Positions 35,792 to 54,724 of a DNA stretch of 64,000 nt are shown piece after piece. Made by a program: the position numbers and the translations under genes. The DNA comes from Sulfuricurvum sp. (lineage in GTDB: Bacteria; Campylobacterota; Campylobacteria; Campylobacterales; Sulfurimonadaceae). The stretch's first letter is position 1. Every line of letters begins with the position of its first letter. The notes below the pieces were generated by a model. It saw only the letters and a program-made list of their open reading frames with translations, did not search any database and had not been told where the DNA came from. The stretch is from positions 124,001-188,000 of the forward strand of contig NZ_JAQTNN010000003.1 in NCBI RefSeq assembly GCF_028713855.1, given 5' to 3'.

Positions 35792-36379
35792 ATGAATACA
35801 CAAATCAACTTTGAAAAATCATCCATTGCTAACCTTCCCAGTAAATACGGTCATTTTAAAATTCGGGTTTATAAAGAAGGAATTCAAGAGCATTTAGCCA
35901 TTTTTACCGAAAATTTCGAGAAGCAAGAATCTCCACTGGTGCGTATTCACTCCGAGTGCCTTACCGGTGATACATTAGGCAGCATCAAATGCGATTGTAA
36001 CAATCAGTTACATAAAGCACTTACTATGGTGGCTCAAGAGGGAGGGTTGGTGATCTATCATCGTCAAGAAGGACGGAATATCGGTCTTCTCAATAAGATC
36101 AATGCCTACTGCCTCCAAGATCAGGGGCGCAATACGATCGAAGCCAATGTCGAACTCGGCTTTGCCCCCGATCAACGAACCTATGATGTCGTGGGTGAGA
36201 TATTTTCCGATTTTAACCTCACCAAAATTCGTCTTCTCACAAACAACCCTGCCAAAGTATCCGTCGTTGAGCAGCTGAATGTTGAAATTACTGAACGTGT
36301 TCCCGTCATTATCGATTCCAATCCTCATAATGAAGGATATTTAAAAGTCAAAAAAGAGCAGATGGGACACATAATTTAA
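35792..36379 (+). CDS. ribA: GTP cyclohydrolase II
   Basis: This 195-residue monofunctional enzyme starts riboflavin synthesis from GTP. HSECLTGDTLGSIKCDCNNQL holds the three zinc Cys, YHRQEGRNIGLLNKINAY the catalytic Arg region and LTNNPAKV the guanine site. No DHBP synthase domain is fused. The ATG follows a TATAAT by six bases with no ribosome site. Confidence 0.95.
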   Translation: MNTQINFEKSSIANLPSKYGHFKIRVYKEGIQEHLAIFTENFEKQESPLVRIHSECLTGDTLGSIKCDCNNQLHKALTMVAQEGGLVIYHRQEGRNIGLLNKINAYCLQDQGRNTIEANVELGFAPDQRTYDVVGEIFSDFNLTKIRLLTNNPAKVSVVEQLNVEITERVPVIIDSNPHNEGYLKVKKEQMGHII

Positions 36380-36419: not shown

Positions 36420-38576
36420 ATGAGAGCAATGATGCGTTTAATCTTTTTACTTTTTTTCCTCTCATTTCCCCTTTTCGCCCTCAGTAATAATTTTAAAGTG
36501 GTTATCGACAGTTTTTCAACCAAAGAAGATGCTCGCAAGGCGTATCTACGCTATCAAAACGACCCTCAATCTATCATCTCACAATACAAAAATGAAAAAG
36601 AGTTTATACTCCATTTCCGAAAATCAGGCGGACGCTATATCATTGCTGCGGAGCCTTTTAGCTCCCGTCAAGATGCCGAAGCGGTAGTTCAAAAAATTAT
36701 CTCTACCTATCCGAATGCATCCGTCAGTCAAGGCGTTGCTAATGATATAGAATTCCTATTAATGCAGCATCGAAATGCGCTAAAACAACAATCGTCTTTT
36801 TCTGAGGTTCCTAAGAGCACACTTCCCCCAAGTGTTACACCGGTCACACCTGTTTTACCTTCTCCCACTGTAGACTCATCCAAAGTCTCTTTTAGCTTCT
36901 GGATTATCGGCATTCTTATTTTATTAACAACACTTTACATTTTTTGGCGCGAACAAAGCTATAAAAAACTTACCCACCGATACAATGAACTTTTTGATGA
37001 AAAAGAGTCTATTCAAAAAGCCATTCAGGCAAAAAATGATTTTATTGCGATGATGAGTCATGAAATCCGTGCCCCAATCAATGCGGTTATGGGAATAAGC
37101 CACCTTGTTCTAGAATCCCACCTGAGTGTCACGCAGCGTTCTCAAATTACGAAAATAAAAGCTTCTGCCTCTCTTTTACTCAATCTTATCAACGATATTT
37201 TGGATCATTCAAAAATGGAAGCTGGAAAAGTAACGATCGAACAGATCCCATTTGATCTCAATGCCCTGTTGGATGATATTTCCAATATTATTTCGCATAA
37301 AGCCAATGAAAAAAAGCTGGAACTTATTTTCGATCTTGACAGCACGGTACCGAATAAATTAATCGGTGATCCGTTACGGCTTCTTCAAGTATTGGTCAAT
37401 CTACTCAATAATGCTGTTAAATTTACCGAGAGTGGAAATATCGTCCTTAGAGCACGGGGACAGCATATCAGCCGTCTAAATCTCAAAATTCATTTCGAAG
37501 TAATCGATACCGGAATCGGAATGAACCATGAGCAAATCGACCGATTGTTCCATTCATATGCGCAAGCAGATGAAACGATCTCACGCAGATACGGCGGTAC
37601 TGGACTGGGACTGAGTATCTGTAAAAATCTGGTAGCGCTTATGGGTGGGACGATTCAAGTGCAAAGTAAGCTGAATGAAGGAAGTACCTTCTCATTTGAT
37701 ATTAAACTTCATTCGGATTTGGATTTTGAAAAACGGCGTTATCGACTTCCAACGACCGAGTTAATGTCAAAGAATGCTTTAATATTAGATGAGAATACTC
37801 ACAGTGCCTCCGTATTACAGAGGGGACTTGAGTACTTTCATTATGAGGTTAAACCCGTTGTCGATTCACTAGACGCTATAGCGCTCTTACAAAAATATAC
37901 TTTCGATATTGTTTTTATCGATACCAAAATGTCCCTATGCGGTGAGTTTAAAAAAGAACTCCAAAACCGCATCAAAAACGATGAGCTTAAATTAGTGTGG
38001 ATGGGAGAAGATCTTAAAAAACGGGGAGGATTTATTCTAACCAAACCGTACAACCAACTCGATATTTTCAATGCTATTCTCTCTATTTACGGCTATATGG
38101 ACCAAAACGGGAAACATCATAATAATACTAAAAAGCTCAAAGAGAGTCTCAAAAAATTCGCAGGTGAAACGCTTTTATTGGCTGAAGACAATGAGATCAA
38201 CCGATCTATTATCTCCGGTCTCCTTGCCGGAACCGATATTGCTATCATTACTGCGAAAACGGGGAAAGAAGCCGTTGAAGCCGTTCAACTAAATCCAGCA
38301 ATCAGTGTTATTTTAATGGATATTCAAATGCCAATTATGGATGGTTTTGAAGCGACCCTTATCATCCGCCAAGACCCTGCAAAAGAGATTATTCCAATCA
38401 TAGCTGTTACCGGAAATAGCTTGGAGAGCGATATTCAAAATATCCACAATGCCGGAATGAATGGGCATATTACTAAACCGATTGATGTCAATACTTTTTA
38501 CACTACCCTTTATTATGCATTTGAAAAATCACTCACTCATGCCAAAAGACCAAACAGCTCACTGAATATTGCTTGA
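36420..38576 (+). CDS. hybrid sensor histidine kinase with SPOR-like periplasmic domain
   Basis: This 718-residue membrane sensor has a signal-like N-terminus (1-22) and a periplasmic part (about 24-105) with FKVVIDSFSTKEDARKAYLR and RYIIAAEPFSSRQDAEAVVQ, which resembles a SPOR peptidoglycan-binding fold. A Pro/Ser-rich linker leads to a membrane helix at 157-176. Then come a HisKA domain (FIAMMSHEIRAPINAV, His214), a HATPase domain (NLLNNAVKFT, DTGIGM, GGTGLGLSICKNL), a degenerate receiver and a full C-terminal receiver with VILMDIQMP (Asp634). No cognate regulator is adjacent, so phosphotransfer may go to a distant protein. AAAGG precedes the ATG. Confidence 0.88.
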   Translation: MRAMMRLIFLLFFLSFPLFALSNNFKVVIDSFSTKEDARKAYLRYQNDPQSIISQYKNEKEFILHFRKSGGRYIIAAEPFSSRQDAEAVVQKIISTYPNASVSQGVANDIEFLLMQHRNALKQQSSFSEVPKSTLPPSVTPVTPVLPSPTVDSSKVSFSFWIIGILILLTTLYIFWREQSYKKLTHRYNELFDEKESIQKAIQAKNDFIAMMSHEIRAPINAVMGISHLVLESHLSVTQRSQITKIKASASLLLNLINDILDHSKMEAGKVTIEQIPFDLNALLDDISNIISHKANEKKLELIFDLDSTVPNKLIGDPLRLLQVLVNLLNNAVKFTESGNIVLRARGQHISRLNLKIHFEVIDTGIGMNHEQIDRLFHSYAQADETISRRYGGTGLGLSICKNLVALMGGTIQVQSKLNEGSTFSFDIKLHSDLDFEKRRYRLPTTELMSKNALILDENTHSASVLQRGLEYFHYEVKPVVDSLDAIALLQKYTFDIVFIDTKMSLCGEFKKELQNRIKNDELKLVWMGEDLKKRGGFILTKPYNQLDIFNAILSIYGYMDQNGKHHNNTKKLKESLKKFAGETLLLAEDNEINRSIISGLLAGTDIAIITAKTGKEAVEAVQLNPAISVILMDIQMPIMDGFEATLIIRQDPAKEIIPIIAVTGNSLESDIQNIHNAGMNGHITKPIDVNTFYTTLYYAFEKSLTHAKRPNSSLNIA

Positions 38577-38627: not shown

Positions 38628-39215
38628 ATGATTTATTTGATACCCTTGAAAACTTTAGTGACCAATCGAAACATAACAGTGCCGGAGCAATTTTTTGAAC
38701 AGGTAGAACACTACAAAATATTGCTCGAAAAATGGAATAAAATTCATAATCTTACGGGAGCTAAAACACTACATCAAATCAATGAGTTCATCGTGGATGC
38801 CATCACACCCATCACCTTCCTGCCACCCGTTACAAAAGCGATGGATATTGGTACCGGTGCCGGATTTCCGGGGATGATTTTAGCTATGGCGATGCCCAAA
38901 ACCCATTTTACCCTTGTAGAACCACTCACTAAACGTGCAAGCTTTTTGCAGTTTGTTAAAGCTGATTTGGGATTGAATAACGTTGATGTAAAAGCCCTAC
39001 GGGTAGAACAGCTACCAAGTGAACCGTATGATCTCATCACCTCTCGCGCCGTTACCGATACCGATATGCTTCTCAAACTCTCAGAACCCTTTTGTACAAA
39101 AGGAACTCTTTTGCTCTTTTACAAAGGGGAAAAAGTGTATGATGAAATCAATGAATCGTTAGATTACACCATTATAGAAGCAGAAAATCGCCATTATCTG
39201 CTGATAAAGAGATAA
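38628..39215 (+). CDS. rsmG: 16S rRNA (guanine-527-N7)-methyltransferase
   Basis: This 195-residue methyltransferase modifies 16S rRNA. It has [16 protein letters not shown] near the N-terminus, the SAM-binding [40 protein letters not shown] and [16 protein letters not shown], matching RsmG/GidB. No clear ribosome site is seen before 38628. A later start is possible but would remove little. The next two small genes follow closely. Confidence 0.9.
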
Positions 39216-44700: not shown

Positions 44701-45894
44701 CTAAAAAGGTTTAGGTTTAAAGGTGCTAATATCAACATAATAGGTTCCATCGAAATCAAAATAAGGTTTCTTAATCGGTTTGGTTCGAAGTACCTTTTTG
44801 AAAATACTGTCCATTTTATCCCGTAACGCGAGGAAAGTTTTACGTTCTTTTCCGCTAAAGCCTTCGGTTTTTTTCTTCATAACACCAAGAGGATCAATCG
44901 CCCTACTTCCAGCATACATCCCAAAATGCAAATGGGGACCGGATGAAAGCCCTGAAGAGCCAACATAACCGATCACTTCGCCTTGTTTAACCGATGTACC
45001 GTTATGGATACCGCTTCGAAATGATTTTTGATGCGCGTATAAACTAGTCAAACCGTTGGAATGACGAATTTTGATCGTATTGCCATATCCGCGAGACGAC
45101 CCGGCAAAACATACCCGTCCGTCCCCTGTTGCTAAAATCGGTGTTCCCGGACGGGCACCGAAATCAACTCCCAAATGTGCCCGATAACGGTGAAGAACAG
45201 GATGATAACGGCTCTTTGTAAAACCTGAAGTAATACGAGGATTATTGATTGGGATCTTGAATAAAAATTTCTCATACTGACCCCCTTTTTCATCGTAAAA
45301 CCGACCGTCGCTATGACGGTATACCGTGACACGCTTACCATTAATCTCAATCATGGCTCCATGCACTTCCGGCATTGAAAACGGTTTACCTAAACGGTAT
45401 TTTTGGGTATAAATCAGCACAATTGGATCGCCTATTTTAAACCCTTTACGGAAATCGACTTTTCCTTTGAACATTTTGACAAATTCGGAAGCCAGATTTT
45501 TGGAACCGGTTGCTTTTAAAATATCATCATAAGGAAGACTCTGAATCGGAACGTATAAATTTTCGGTATATTCTTGGCTGACGATCGGAGTCACTTGCAT
45601 TTCATATCGATTTTTCGGTGTTAAATAGATTTGCAATTGAAGTTCATCATTGACCGGAATCAAAATTTGGCGAATAATATGTTTTTCATCCACGAGCATT
45701 TGACAATTCGCACTGTAGGGAATGTCTTCGGTAAGCTTTTGATCTTCTTTATCGAGGTTATAATAGATTGACTGCGGGAGTTTTTTTCGCTCTAAAAATG
45801 TGAGGAAACTCTCTCCGTCTTGCCATTTGAACGGTTTTACAGACGTGCCAAAGAGGAGCATGGGCAATAAAAACAATAGAAAAAATCGACCCAT
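44701..45894 (-). CDS. M23 peptidoglycan endopeptidase, Csd3-like
   Basis: This 397-residue periplasmic protein has a signal peptide (MGRFFLLFLLPMLLFGTS). A mid part is followed by the LytM domain with HLGVDFGARPGTPILATGDG, GNTIKIRHSNGLTSLYAHQ and SSGPHLHFGMY, the complete zinc ligand set HxxxD...HxH. The overall layout and length match Csd3 (HdpA) of Helicobacter, a DD-endopeptidase that sets cell curvature. AAGGA five bases before the ATG at 45894 favours this start over the ATG at 45900. Confidence 0.88.
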   Translation of the reverse strand: MGRFFLLFLLPMLLFGTSVKPFKWQDGESFLTFLERKKLPQSIYYNLDKEDQKLTEDIPYSANCQMLVDEKHIIRQILIPVNDELQLQIYLTPKNRYEMQVTPIVSQEYTENLYVPIQSLPYDDILKATGSKNLASEFVKMFKGKVDFRKGFKIGDPIVLIYTQKYRLGKPFSMPEVHGAMIEINGKRVTVYRHSDGRFYDEKGGQYEKFLFKIPINNPRITSGFTKSRYHPVLHRYRAHLGVDFGARPGTPILATGDGRVCFAGSSRGYGNTIKIRHSNGLTSLYAHQKSFRSGIHNGTSVKQGEVIGYVGSSGLSSGPHLHFGMYAGSRAIDPLGVMKKKTEGFSGKERKTFLALRDKMDSIFKKVLRTKPIKKPYFDFDGTYYVDISTFKPKPF

Positions 45895-45977
45895 TCTCAT
45901 CCTTGATCAAAATACGCTTTGACAGCGAAAAAGAGTTAAATCATAGCAAAAATTCCATTTACAAAGATGTGTTAAGC

Positions 45978-48203: not shown

Positions 48204-49010
48204 ATGAATTTGAAAGCAACGCTAAAACATATTCGGCTTTTTTTCTTGATGCTATTTGATCGGGAAATCACCGTATATGCTTCAAGCCTGAGCTTTTACA
48301 CTATTTTTACCGTTGTTCCACTCTTGATTATCTCCCTCAGTCTAATTGCCAATGTCCCTGTTTTCCAAGACCAATACGCAAAAATCCAAATCTTTATTTT
48401 TGAGAACATGATGCCGGTTCAAACCGCCGCAGTTGCAGGATATTTAGAATCCTTTTTCCAAAACTCGGTACAGCTTGGGATAATCGGTTTTACGACGATG
48501 ATCGTCTCCTCGTTGCTTTTTTTCCAAAATTTCGAGCATATTGTCAGTAAAATTTTTAAGACTCCCAAAAGACGACTTTGGAATGCTATCAGCACCTATT
48601 GGACCCTTATCACCCTCACCCCGATTGTCCTTATCGTATCTATGAGTTTAAAAGCTTATTTGATCGCTCATGTCAGCGGTATCGCCCTTCATGCCCTCTC
48701 CATCTTCCCTTTCATACTACTATGGGGAATTTTTTTCATAATCTATCATATCGCTGTCAATGCCGATGTTTCACCAAAAGCAGCCGCTATCAGCTCGTTT
48801 GTTGTCGCCGTTGTATGGGGATTGGCAAAAAACAGTTTCGTCCAATACGTCTTTTACAATAAAACCTATGCCACCATGTATGGATCGTTTTCCGCCCTCA
48901 TCTTTTTCTTTTTATGGATTTATGTCTCATGGATCATTGTCATTTACGGAATGAAACTATGCTATTTGATAAATCGCGCTGCCCAACGTACCGAGACCCA
49001 AAAGGCCTAA
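48204..49010 (+). CDS. YihY/virulence factor BrkB family membrane protein
   Basis: This 268-residue inner membrane protein has about six hydrophobic helices. FDREITVYASSLSFYTIFTV at the start, TPKRRLWNAISTYWTL, the helix AAAISSFVVAVVWGLAKNSF and GSFSALIFFFLWIYVSWIIV are family features. Its function is unsettled; earlier names as RNase BN are not supported. It overlaps the 3' end of comEC by 54 bp on the opposite strand. Confidence 0.88.
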   Translation: MNLKATLKHIRLFFLMLFDREITVYASSLSFYTIFTVVPLLIISLSLIANVPVFQDQYAKIQIFIFENMMPVQTAAVAGYLESFFQNSVQLGIIGFTTMIVSSLLFFQNFEHIVSKIFKTPKRRLWNAISTYWTLITLTPIVLIVSMSLKAYLIAHVSGIALHALSIFPFILLWGIFFIIYHIAVNADVSPKAAAISSFVVAVVWGLAKNSFVQYVFYNKTYATMYGSFSALIFFFLWIYVSWIIVIYGMKLCYLINRAAQRTETQKA

Positions 49011-50219
49011 CGCCCAAAACGATCCCCGCCACCGCATCGCACTTACCGCCAGTACGATACTTCCAATACCTATCCACATCGGAATCACCACATTTTGCAA
49101 TGCCCCAGTATCAAACATTTTAATTAAAACAGAATCAAATACATCTGCCCACGGTGTCCAATGAAGTACTAGTACTGTCGGATAATAAAGATTAAAAATC
49201 AGGTTAATCGGAATCGAACCCAAATGATTCCAACTAAACGTTCCGAAAATAGCCAGTGAGATCGGTAAGAGTACGAGATAACACCAAAGATGCAGTGCCA
49301 AAAATATTTGCCAAGGCTTCCAATGCTCATAGTAGCGGATGAAAATAAAAATCGAGAGTACTCCGAACGTCGAAAACCAAAACGATAGGGAGAAAAAAAG
49401 TCTTGGGAAAAAGGCGAGTAGTAACCCCACTGCGATCAACAGCGTTTGAAGCGAAACGATTTTTATCCCCCGATCATAGAGCCAATATCCTACCACGATC
49501 ATCCCGAAAGAGCGCACCATCGCGGGATTAAATTCTAAAATCGAAAGATACATAAACAGTAATCCTGTCACTATCCAAAACAGATCCCTATTTCTGTGTC
49601 GATAGGGAAAATAGTTATTTTGTATCCAACGATACGGAGTTCTGAGAAAGAAATAGGCTATTAGACTAAGAATCCCAAAATGATATCCGCTAATCGATAG
49701 AACAGGGCTTAGCCCCATCGCCCCCACTAACGCTTGAAACTCCATAGACATTGGTGTAGCAACAAACAAGGCTCCATAAAGTTCTTTCATCCGCTGATCA
49801 TTATGCGCCGATGAGATATGCCGATACCATCGCTCTTTGAGACTCAGAGGTGGATAGACTTCTGTGATCAAACCACGGGTACGAAACCCTTTGAGGTAAT
49901 CCAAAAAGCTCACTTTCGCGACCTGCAGCTCCACCAATACTTCCCGTCCGCGCAGATCACGAAGATACGGGCTCATAGCGCATCGAACACTTGCACCATT
50001 TTCGAGTCGAAGCTTCATGGAGGTCTTAGGTTTATCGCCGATTAGACGTACCTCTTGATCGATTACCTCAGCACGTGCTAGCGGATCATCGAATTTGACA
50101 AAGTCTTTGTAGTGGTAATATTCCCAACCAAGAGATAAGGAAGCAATAAATAAGAGTATGAGAAAAAAGAACGAACCACTTTTACGGTCAAAGAGATCGA
50201 CACGCTCAAGCTTAGACAT
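48957..50219 (-). CDS. comEC: ComEC/Rec2-type DNA uptake channel, short form
   Basis: This 420-residue polytopic membrane protein has the competence domain MGLSPVLSISGYHFGILSLI, LEFNPAMVRSFGMIVVGYWL and LAIFGTFSWNHLGSIPINL. It has no C-terminal metallo-beta-lactamase domain, as in short ComEC forms of this phylum. It should move single DNA strands into the cytoplasm. The ATG at 50219 is chosen because the upstream frame to 50267 is encoded by the palindromic repeat. Confidence 0.85.
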   Translation of the reverse strand: MSKLERVDLFDRKSGSFFFLILLFIASLSLGWEYYHYKDFVKFDDPLARAEVIDQEVRLIGDKPKTSMKLRLENGASVRCAMSPYLRDLRGREVLVELQVAKVSFLDYLKGFRTRGLITEVYPPLSLKERWYRHISSAHNDQRMKELYGALFVATPMSMEFQALVGAMGLSPVLSISGYHFGILSLIAYFFLRTPYRWIQNNYFPYRHRNRDLFWIVTGLLFMYLSILEFNPAMVRSFGMIVVGYWLYDRGIKIVSLQTLLIAVGLLLAFFPRLFFSLSFWFSTFGVLSIFIFIRYYEHWKPWQIFLALHLWCYLVLLPISLAIFGTFSWNHLGSIPINLIFNLYYPTVLVLHWTPWADVFDSVLIKMFDTGALQNVVIPMWIGIGSIVLAVSAMRWRGSFWALGLLGLGTLGSAIYQIA

Positions 50220-50225
50220 ATAACC

Positions 50226-50282
50226 CCGTTCGTGGTGAGCTTGTCGAACCACAACACCCTTCGACAAGCTCAGGGCGAACGG
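50226..50282. repeat. 57-bp inverted repeat upstream of comEC
   Basis: Two 23-bp arms (50226-50248 and 50260-50282) are complementary except for three bases and are split by an 11-base loop. Each arm contains the AGCTTGTCGAA / TTCGACAAGCT block. The right arm is identical over 23 bp to 23058-23080. It lies between dnaB and comEC and would form a strong hairpin in the transcript. Confidence 0.85.
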
Positions 50283-52833: not shown

Positions 52834-54705
52834 TTACGTAAACTCTATGGGGTCCATATCGATCTCGCATAGCGGTGATTTGATATGTTTGATAGCCCGA
52901 ATCAAATCAGTACTTTTATCACTTCGAAGCAGTATCTGAAACCGATATTTATCGGCAATCTTCTCGATCGGAGAGGCTCCGAATCCGACAATCTGAACCA
53001 TCTGCATCTGCTCAATTTCTCTCACAGCCATCTGCATCGCCTCTTTTGCTTTTATCCCATTTTTATGGGCATAAAGCAGACGTGCCAACTTTTTTGTCGG
53101 AGGATAACGCCCTGAGCGGATTCTCATCTCATCAATCAAAAAGTTTTCATAATCATCCAAATAACCTCTGAAAAATGATTCATTAAAACTCTGAACAATG
53201 ACGGTAGCATCTTGTTTACGACCACTCCGTCCGGCGATCTGCACCAAAAGCGAAAGTGCCTTTTCCCGTGCGCGATAATCCGACTGTGAGAGGAGGTTAT
53301 CGATCCCCATCACCACGGCGAGGGTAATATCATGGTAATCATGCCCTTTAGAGAGCATCTGTGTCCCAACGAGCAAATCTATCTCACGTTTATTGAACGC
53401 TTCAAGTACTTTTATGAGTTTATTTTGAGTCGTGATAATATCACGGTCAAACTGCTGAACTCTCAAATTTTCCGAGAGCTTACTGAAATGCTCTACTGCC
53501 TCCGCTGTCCCGAGCCTCGTTGTGCGCAATGCACCGCTTTGACATTTCGGACATACTTTCGGGAGCACTTCAGTGTAATTGCAATAGTGGCATTTCAACG
53601 CACGGGAATTTTTATGCTGAGACATTCCGACACTGCAGAACGGACACTCTACATGATAACCGCACGCATCACACACCGTGTATTTGAAATTCGCCCGAGT
53701 CGGGATAAAAACAATCCCCTGATGACCTACGGCAAAATTCTCCATCACTTTCGCGTCAATACTAGGAGTCAACGCTTCGAGCGAGGGTTCAAATACAAAC
53801 GTCCGCTTGGACTCATAATACCCTCCGCGAAGACGAAAAAAGGGATATTTGGCATAACTGCCCAAACTCGGAGTAGCACTCCCCAATACAACGGGGATTT
53901 TAAAAAGATTCCCGATATATACTGCCATATCCCGCGCATTGTAGCGAGGACGTGAGGAAGATTTATAACTCTCATCATGTTCTTCATCGACGACAATAAG
54001 CCCCAAATCCGCTATCGGCAAAAATAGTGCCGACCGAGGCCCAACAATGATATGTGCCGAGCCGTCATAGATTTTCTCCAGCGTCACCTTTTTTTGTTTC
54101 GGCGTCATTTTAGAGTGCCAAAGCACCACTGCTTCACCGAAATGCGCACAAAAACGTGACTCCATCTGCGGTGTGAGGGAAATTTCAGGAAGTAGCAATA
54201 AACAGCGTTTTCCCCCGCTTAATACTTCATCCATACGAGACATATAGATTTCACTTTTCCCGGCGCCCGTATCACCGAAAAGAAGGGAGACGGAGTGGGA
54301 TCGGATAAAATCGAGTGCTTGGGACTGAGGATCTGAGAGAGTGATGTTTAGAGCTGGATTCCCGCCTACGCGGGAATGACGGGTTTTGTTATCCTCGGGC
54401 TTGACCCGGGGATCCATCCCCCTAAACGGCACAAACAAATTTAGCGCCTCCCCAAGTGAACATCCGTAATACTCCGCCATAAACTGAGCACTCTGTATTT
54501 GGGTATCTGAATAAAAAAATCCTCTGGTTTCACCGACTGGTTGTGTGATAAATTCTGGTTTTTCACATTCGTTGATAACAACACCCTGCAGCGTACGACT
54601 GGAAAGGGTTACATCAATTTCACTGCCGACAGTCAATACATTTTTTGAATGATAAGTAAGAAGTTCGAGAGGAGAGCCCAAAAGGGCTATGCGGTAAAAA
54701 TACAT
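52834..54705 (-). CDS. priA: primosomal helicase PriA, with an in-frame repeat insertion
   Basis: This 623-residue 3'-5' helicase restarts stalled forks. Motifs are FGDTGAGKSEIYMSRM (Walker A), VVDEEHDESYKS (DEEH), SATPSLGSYAKY, GTQMLSKGHDYHDI and QIAGRSGRKQ, and a zinc region CDACGYHVECPFC plus CHYCNYTEVLPKVCPKC. The ATG at 54705 matches the family N-terminus. Residues 96-118 (GMDPRVKPEDNKTRHSRVGG and the following NPA) are encoded by the repeat at 54352-54420 and are not normal PriA sequence. They lie before Walker A. Confidence 0.95.
   Translation of the reverse strand: MYFYRIALLGSPLELLTYHSKNVLTVGSEIDVTLSSRTLQGVVINECEKPEFITQPVGETRGFFYSDTQIQSAQFMAEYYGCSLGEALNLFVPFRGMDPRVKPEDNKTRHSRVGGNPALNITLSDPQSQALDFIRSHSVSLLFGDTGAGKSEIYMSRMDEVLSGGKRCLLLLPEISLTPQMESRFCAHFGEAVVLWHSKMTPKQKKVTLEKIYDGSAHIIVGPRSALFLPIADLGLIVVDEEHDESYKSSSRPRYNARDMAVYIGNLFKIPVVLGSATPSLGSYAKYPFFRLRGGYYESKRTFVFEPSLEALTPSIDAKVMENFAVGHQGIVFIPTRANFKYTVCDACGYHVECPFCSVGMSQHKNSRALKCHYCNYTEVLPKVCPKCQSGALRTTRLGTAEAVEHFSKLSENLRVQQFDRDIITTQNKLIKVLEAFNKREIDLLVGTQMLSKGHDYHDITLAVVMGIDNLLSQSDYRAREKALSLLVQIAGRSGRKQDATVIVQSFNESFFRGYLDDYENFLIDEMRIRSGRYPPTKKLARLLYAHKNGIKAKEAMQMAVREIEQMQMVQIVGFGASPIEKIADKYRFQILLRSDKSTDLIRAIKHIKSPLCEIDMDPIEFT
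54352..54420. repeat. palindromic element inserted in frame in priA
   Basis: Two hairpins, ATTCCCGC-CTAC-GCGGGAAT and ATCCTCGGG-CTTGA-CCCGGGGAT (one G-T pair), sit back to back. Translated on the minus strand they give the RHSRVGGNP and DPRVKPEDN peptides known from palindromic repeats in many proteobacteria. Frame is kept through all 69 bases. Confidence 0.8.
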
Positions 54706-54724
54706 ATTTGGGGATACAATCAAC

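Follow-up and report, generated by a model that had tools for sequence, protein, structure and literature searches.

A divergent SPOR domain as the only predicted periplasmic domain of a Sulfuricurvum hybrid histidine kinase

The direct detection of cell wall damage by bacteria has been described as largely unknown (PMC6863773), and a kinase whose sole outside part is a wall-binding-type domain would make wall-damage sensing testable. Such a kinase appears to be encoded at 36420-38576 of the window, by which we mean the whole stretch of 64,000 nucleotides analysed, in the sulfur-oxidising bacterium Sulfuricurvum sp. (Campylobacterota). An initial annotation had recognised a SPOR-like periplasmic sensor in this hybrid histidine kinase and had proposed that it senses bare peptidoglycan and reports on wall remodelling or division. 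The locus thus raises the question of whether the domain is indeed a SPOR domain and, if so, what it may bind and how it could feed a phosphorelay.

The features of the gene are collected in Table 1. A possible alternative start, the ATG at 36432, is the start position in most orthologs. The signal peptide was read by eye, and the transmembrane (TM) helix was placed by eye together with hydropathy; the FALS motif is kept in orthologs of the window kinase, and A-x-A-like sites occur in distant members. In the predicted topology, SPOR residues 23-105 form the only periplasmic domain. The motifs of a hybrid kinase are in place (His214, NLLNNA 327, DTGIGM 363, GGTGLGL 392, D634 and K686). The initial annotation had also described a degenerate receiver ahead of an active one. 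This holds for the second receiver, REC2, which has the complete set E589/D590, D634, T664 and K686, but only in part for the first, REC1, which is without the usual Thr/Ser and scores below the Pfam cut-off (26.0 versus 30.2 bits), yet has Asp501, at the acceptor position, and Lys542. Family members further removed have lost even the acceptor Asp of REC1. No Pfam match to an HPt domain was found within the protein.

Table 1 Features of the kinase gene and its conserved neighbours (window coordinates unless given as residues).
Feature	Position	Strand	Basis
SPOR-sensor hybrid histidine kinase, 718 aa	36420..38576	+	ORF; Pfam HisKA, HATPase_c, Response_reg, SPOR; full-length orthologs
Signal peptide, probably cleaved, residues 1-22 (..FALS/NN)	36420..36485	+	Hydrophobic stretch then A-x-S motif
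Divergent SPOR domain, residues 23-105	36486..36734	+	Pfam, profile-profile, AlphaFold2 model, Foldseek
SPOR elements	residues b1 25-32, a1 35-47, b2 63-69, b3 72-80, a2 83-93, b4 101-104
RKSG, invariant, residues 67-70, at b2-b3 hairpin of SPOR	36618..36629	+	R67 aligned to glycan-contacting RlpA R302
Extra C-terminal helix, residues 110-127, outside minimal SPOR fold	36747..36800	+	Model; alignment
Disordered linker, residues 128-155, P/S/T-rich	36801..36884	+	pLDDT <50 in second model
Single TM helix, about residues 158-178, runs on into helix toward HisKA	36891..36953	+	Hydropathy; model helix 158-203
HisKA, residues 204-269, phospho-acceptor His214 in HEIRAP	37029..37226	+	Pfam
HATPase_c, residues 316-430, N, G1, G2 motifs	37365..37709	+	Pfam; motif check
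YRLP linker signature and first receiver (partly degenerate; D457, D501, K542 kept)	37740..38120	+	
Second receiver, every catalytic position present, acceptor D634	38175..38501	+	Pfam; motif check
ribA-type GTP cyclohydrolase II, conserved upstream neighbour	35792..36379	+	Pfam; synteny
rsmG/gidB, conserved downstream neighbour	38628..39215	+	Pfam; synteny

By itself, the match to the Pfam SPOR profile PF05036 is marginal: residues 23-102 scored 24.5 bits in a whole-genome search, above the cut-off of 21, and the kinase scored 20.6 bits, just under it, in hmmscan. Profile-profile comparison of 29 kinase SPOR domains with 29 canonical ones gave a probability of 94% (E 1.1e-7, score 43.8), whereas the best of 60 column-shuffled controls scored 15.7 and none reached the real score; an earlier comparison against seven canonical SPOR sequences had been weak (71%). 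The AlphaFold2 model of residues 21-128 (pLDDT 91.8) adopts the order b1-a1-(short helix)-b2-b3-a2-b4, followed by the extra C-terminal helix. When this model was compared with the PDB by Foldseek, the SPOR domain of CwlC (1x60) ranked first (E 7.9e-4, probability 1.00) as the sole match at E<=1e-3, and the complex of the RlpA SPOR domain with glycan (6i09) was also recovered (probability 0.98, E 0.037). Plain sequence search fails because the domain is too divergent: phmmer of the SPOR region against PDB sequences gave no match, and a search with a profile of the domain gave only chance matches. The two strand-helix units that the initial annotation had read in residues 24-105 are present in 11/11 Sulfuricurvum orthologs, so its own caveat, that the pattern might be absent from homologs, does not apply. 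Taken together, the profile comparisons and the predicted structure confirm that residues 23-105 are homologous to SPOR and are modelled with a SPOR fold, and the SPOR-like sensor of the initial annotation is borne out.

We searched the SPOR profile in 397 genomes of the class and found the same SPOR subfamily at the N terminus of other hybrid kinases and of bitopic SPOR-TM, TolC-type and REC-HPt proteins. The kinases have in common an RxYRLP...LEYFHY signature between the ATPase and the first receiver, and a class-wide search with this YRLP region recovers the superfamily, with SPOR kinases in several Campylobacterota families. All relatives above 140 bits carry SPOR, save one truncated by the end of its contig, but the majority are seeds that had been chosen for having SPOR; the unbiased test is given by the full-length Sulfuricurvum orthologs found with the whole kinase, which keep the domain in 11 of 11 cases. 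In the kinase-core tree, the window gene groups with HPt-bearing SPOR kinases of two other genomes (G436 and G450, support 86/76), apart from generic hybrid kinases. We rejected the view that all YRLP kinases carry SPOR: L196, L198, L200, L201, L204 and L206 have an intact H-box and no SPOR, so that the kinase core does not require the domain. Among lower-scoring relatives are SPOR-less kinases and a well-supported pseudokinase clade without the His. Hybrid pseudokinases with the YRLP linker and no catalytic His make up a large clade (L107, L110, L192-L195, L197, L205, L215, L218 and others), and L192-L195 also have a second SPOR-less pseudokinase gene directly upstream.

Within Sulfuricurvum, the kinase gene lies between ribA and rsmG in 12 of 41 genomes, and ribA directly adjoins rsmG in kinase-less genomes with a readable locus. 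In G021, a decayed remnant sits between the two genes (L239, about 1000-1500), with a SPOR fragment and the C-terminal tail left and the kinase core gone. This remnant and the patchy presence indicate that cells can do without the gene and that at least one loss has occurred. With ribA and rsmG as its neighbours, the gene context offers no link to division, and we rejected such a link through neighbouring genes for the kinase. A promoter and terminator scan yielded nothing informative. Elsewhere in the window, an M23/LytM-type peptidase gene, read by eye, lies about 6 kb downstream of the kinase (44701-45900, minus strand). A priA-like ORF (52834-54723, minus strand) carries an in-frame insert, MDPRVKPEDNKTRHSRVGGNP, that looks like a mobile palindromic repeat, and a related piece (VVRQAHHERG) opens the ORF at 48957-50267.

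How could a SPOR domain in this position control a kinase? In the second model, residues 128-155 fall below pLDDT 50 and one helix (158-203) runs from the membrane into HisKA. Across the family, 24-117 residues, polar and rich in Pro, Ser and Thr, separate the last SPOR strand from the TM helix. As modelled, the kinase would cross the membrane once and have a floppy tether in the periplasm. A flexible, disordered linker makes it unlikely that a signal is relayed by a rigid rod, and clustering, pairing or localisation would be a more natural mode of signalling. The SPOR domain seems to have been retargeted as a tether or clustering sensor.

We consider it slightly more likely than not that the window gene encodes a kinase of a Campylobacterota family in which the sole periplasmic domain, a divergent SPOR, acts as an envelope-binding tether feeding a phosphorelay. 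The secreted domain, held on its flexible linker by one TM helix, would most likely be such a tether and would engage a ligand other than, or modified from, the classical denuded peptidoglycan, or else a SPOR-TM protein. Binding to the envelope would concentrate or pair kinase dimers and thereby change autophosphorylation at His214. The phosphate would pass from His214 to D634 in the second receiver and from there to an HPt domain in trans, since the window kinase is without the HPt found in many relatives; a stand-alone HPt encoded elsewhere in the genome, at C3:19403-19651, is a candidate. The first receiver is probably a weakened, regulatory relic.

The SPOR-TM protein in question is encoded on another contig of the same genome. 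Its gene (L092 9661-10638; C2:217661-218638) lies downstream of a TM-REC-HPt-like gene and overlaps the end of an EAL-HDOD gene by 4 bases; the locus as a whole, TM-REC-pseudoHPt, EAL-HDOD and SPOR-TM, occupies L092 7207-10638 (C2:215206-218637), upstream of proA. EAL-HDOD stands upstream of most SPOR-TM copies, with G012 and G461 as exceptions. The HPt-like part of the TM-REC-pseudoHPt protein has no His. The best matches of the REC-HPt part of this protein are SPOR-TM-REC-pseudoHPt proteins of other genera (G374, 55%; G445, 47%), followed by the REC2-HPt part of the SPOR kinase family, and none of 19 generic hybrid kinases appeared in its top 40 matches. A SPOR-TM protein is present in 13 of the 41 Sulfuricurvum genomes, comprising 12/12 with an intact kinase and 1/29 without (G461, 82% complete). 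This co-occurrence gives a Fisher p of 1.6e-9 with genomes counted regardless of phylogeny, and on a weak rsmG tree the pattern takes about 3 changes, of which as few as 1 is forced.

The kinase and the SPOR-TM locus are possibly one split system. Alternatively to envelope tethering, the SPOR surface of the kinase might serve for protein-protein contact, pairing it with SPOR-TM or other SPOR envelope proteins that bear the real ligand specificity. Consistent with such a partnership are the genome-level co-occurrence, the shared divergent SPOR subfamily and the TM-REC-pseudoHPt gene within the locus, and G231 and G402 each have a SPOR-less YRLP kinase together with a separate SPOR-TM protein. 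However, few independent evolutionary events underlie the pattern and the locus is distant from the kinase, and we regard this explanation as somewhat unlikely.

The binding face bears on the bare-peptidoglycan reading. In the crystal structure of RlpA with glycan, the side chains of Q270, R302, R309 and R311 touch the sugar, contacts being mostly main-chain; RlpA without all three Arg binds glycan far more weakly; the Gln is the one highly conserved contact; and the residues forming the basic patch vary among SPOR families (PMC6895207). In our alignment, these four positions correspond to V28, R67, I74 and A76 of the kinase, so that three of the four are lost, and G272 and G313 of RlpA, on the same strands, are replaced by the acidic D30 and E78. 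Gln occupies the Q270 position in none of the 29 kinase SPOR domains, compared with 29/29 canonical ones from related genomes, which were the top PF05036 matches in the family and are hence biased toward the consensus. Canonical Sulfurimonadaceae domains mostly keep just a Lys at the R309 position. The R302 position is occupied by R67, part of the RKSG hairpin that every Sulfuricurvum ortholog carries unchanged; among the other kinases, Arg is found there in 11 of 18. At the level of sequence, the kinase SPOR argues for a changed ligand. Binding of denuded glycan would be weakened rather than excluded, given the mainly main-chain contacts of RlpA and the invariant R67.

We regard it as unlikely that the domain binds denuded, amidase-processed septal glycan in the canonical manner, making the kinase a monitor of division or wall remodelling. 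The SPOR fold and homology, the retained Arg and the main-chain contacts would suit this explanation, and the genome has one Amidase_3, which could make the ligand, along with canonical SPOR proteins. Yet the conserved Gln is gone from every kinase SPOR, the R309 and R311 positions are non-basic, D30 and E78 would oppose the lactyl carboxylates in the Sulfuricurvum group, and the gene is dispensable. The interpretation of the kinase as a bare-peptidoglycan sensor is partly supported: the SPOR domain stands, and the loss of the canonical side chains tells against the ligand.

A further explanation, that the ligand of the family is a modified glycan or a different polymer, for instance exopolysaccharide, instead of peptidoglycan, draws on related SPOR domains encoded in pga, EPS/Wza-Wzc-like (L102), LapG/LapD and polysaccharide loci; as no such locus lies near the window gene or its orthologs, we hold it to be improbable. 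In L098 (4751-11014), a SPOR-TM gene stands directly upstream of genes for PgaA, a PgaB-like deacetylase and a PgaC-type glycosyltransferase (poly-GlcNAc). In L099 (9480-11405) and L100 (8319-10163), TolC-type outer membrane proteins carry a SPOR-like domain at the N terminus, and their genes adjoin those for a LapG-like protease, LapD, an ABC exporter and HlyD-like proteins; in L099, a giant repeat protein is encoded upstream. Several tandem SPOR domains occur next to apparent polysaccharide synthesis genes in L149, L150 and L155. We rejected a single adhesin or secretion system for the window kinase, as it is other SPOR proteins that are found in type I secretion (T1SS), pga and EPS contexts. 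In two lineages (L275, L276 and L108), mraW and a small ftsL-like gene are found next to SPOR-TM or SPOR-REC genes, a possible division link; the ftsL-like gene has no Pfam support.

Finally, it is very improbable that the N-terminal domain is a vestige with no part in sensing on an otherwise ordinary hybrid kinase, for although several relatives are without SPOR and/or the catalytic His, 20 positions of the SPOR region are invariant in the 11 orthologs (RKSG, EPF, P, G, D, H and others, with D109 just ahead of the extra helix and H117 inside it) while the adjacent linker drifts freely.

With envelope tethering as our preferred reading, a wider scheme can be put forward tentatively, at less than even chance: a phylum-specific split phosphorelay in which SPOR-hybrid kinases, pseudokinases among them, would work with SPOR-TM co-sensors and SPOR-TM-REC-pseudoHPt proteins, EAL-HDOD would serve as the output, and wall or matrix state would be coupled to intracellular signalling. 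In this phylum-wide reading, the non-canonical SPOR domain could, with the same reserve, be a modular sensory or tethering part of a previously undescribed system. A SPOR subfamily without the glycan Gln but with an invariant RKSG would demonstrate retargeting of SPOR folds to signalling, and the question lends itself to testing, as the domain is small and soluble, the ligands to try can be defined and the readout is in cis. Searches of the open literature returned no description of a SPOR-domain histidine kinase. SPOR domains and hybrid kinases are each of known kinds; new are the way they are combined, the changed binding face and the co-occurring locus.

Among known systems, BarA/GacS has the HisKA-HATPase-REC core in common with the window kinase, whose best NCBIfam match is BarA (NF008318, residues 195-698) at 407.6 bits, well below the equivalog cut-off of 890. 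The sensor, the second receiver and the YRLP linker are different, and BarA carries a C-terminal HPt, as do many relatives, whereas the window kinase has none in cis. Two-component signalling by WigK/WigR of V. cholerae and by Rcs/Cpx has been proposed to report on the wall, in a review that mentions no SPOR sensor (PMC6863773). The undescribed SPOR-TM-REC-pseudoHPt proteins (G374 L088, G445 L148) are related through the same SPOR subfamily and REC/HPt homology but have no kinase core, and their HPt is without His. With the SPOR domains of CwlC, FtsN, DamX, DedD and RlpA, the kinase domain shares the b-a-b-b-a-b (RNP-like) fold of two repeats, and it differs in its N-terminal place ahead of the TM helix, its fusion to a kinase, an a1-b2 region 8-10 residues longer and the extra C-terminal helix, besides the binding face that sets it apart from RlpA-type domains. 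Its overall plan is reminiscent of division SPOR proteins, in which the order TM-linker-SPOR is the reverse, and the flexible membrane tether of FtsN and DamX recurs in the window kinase.
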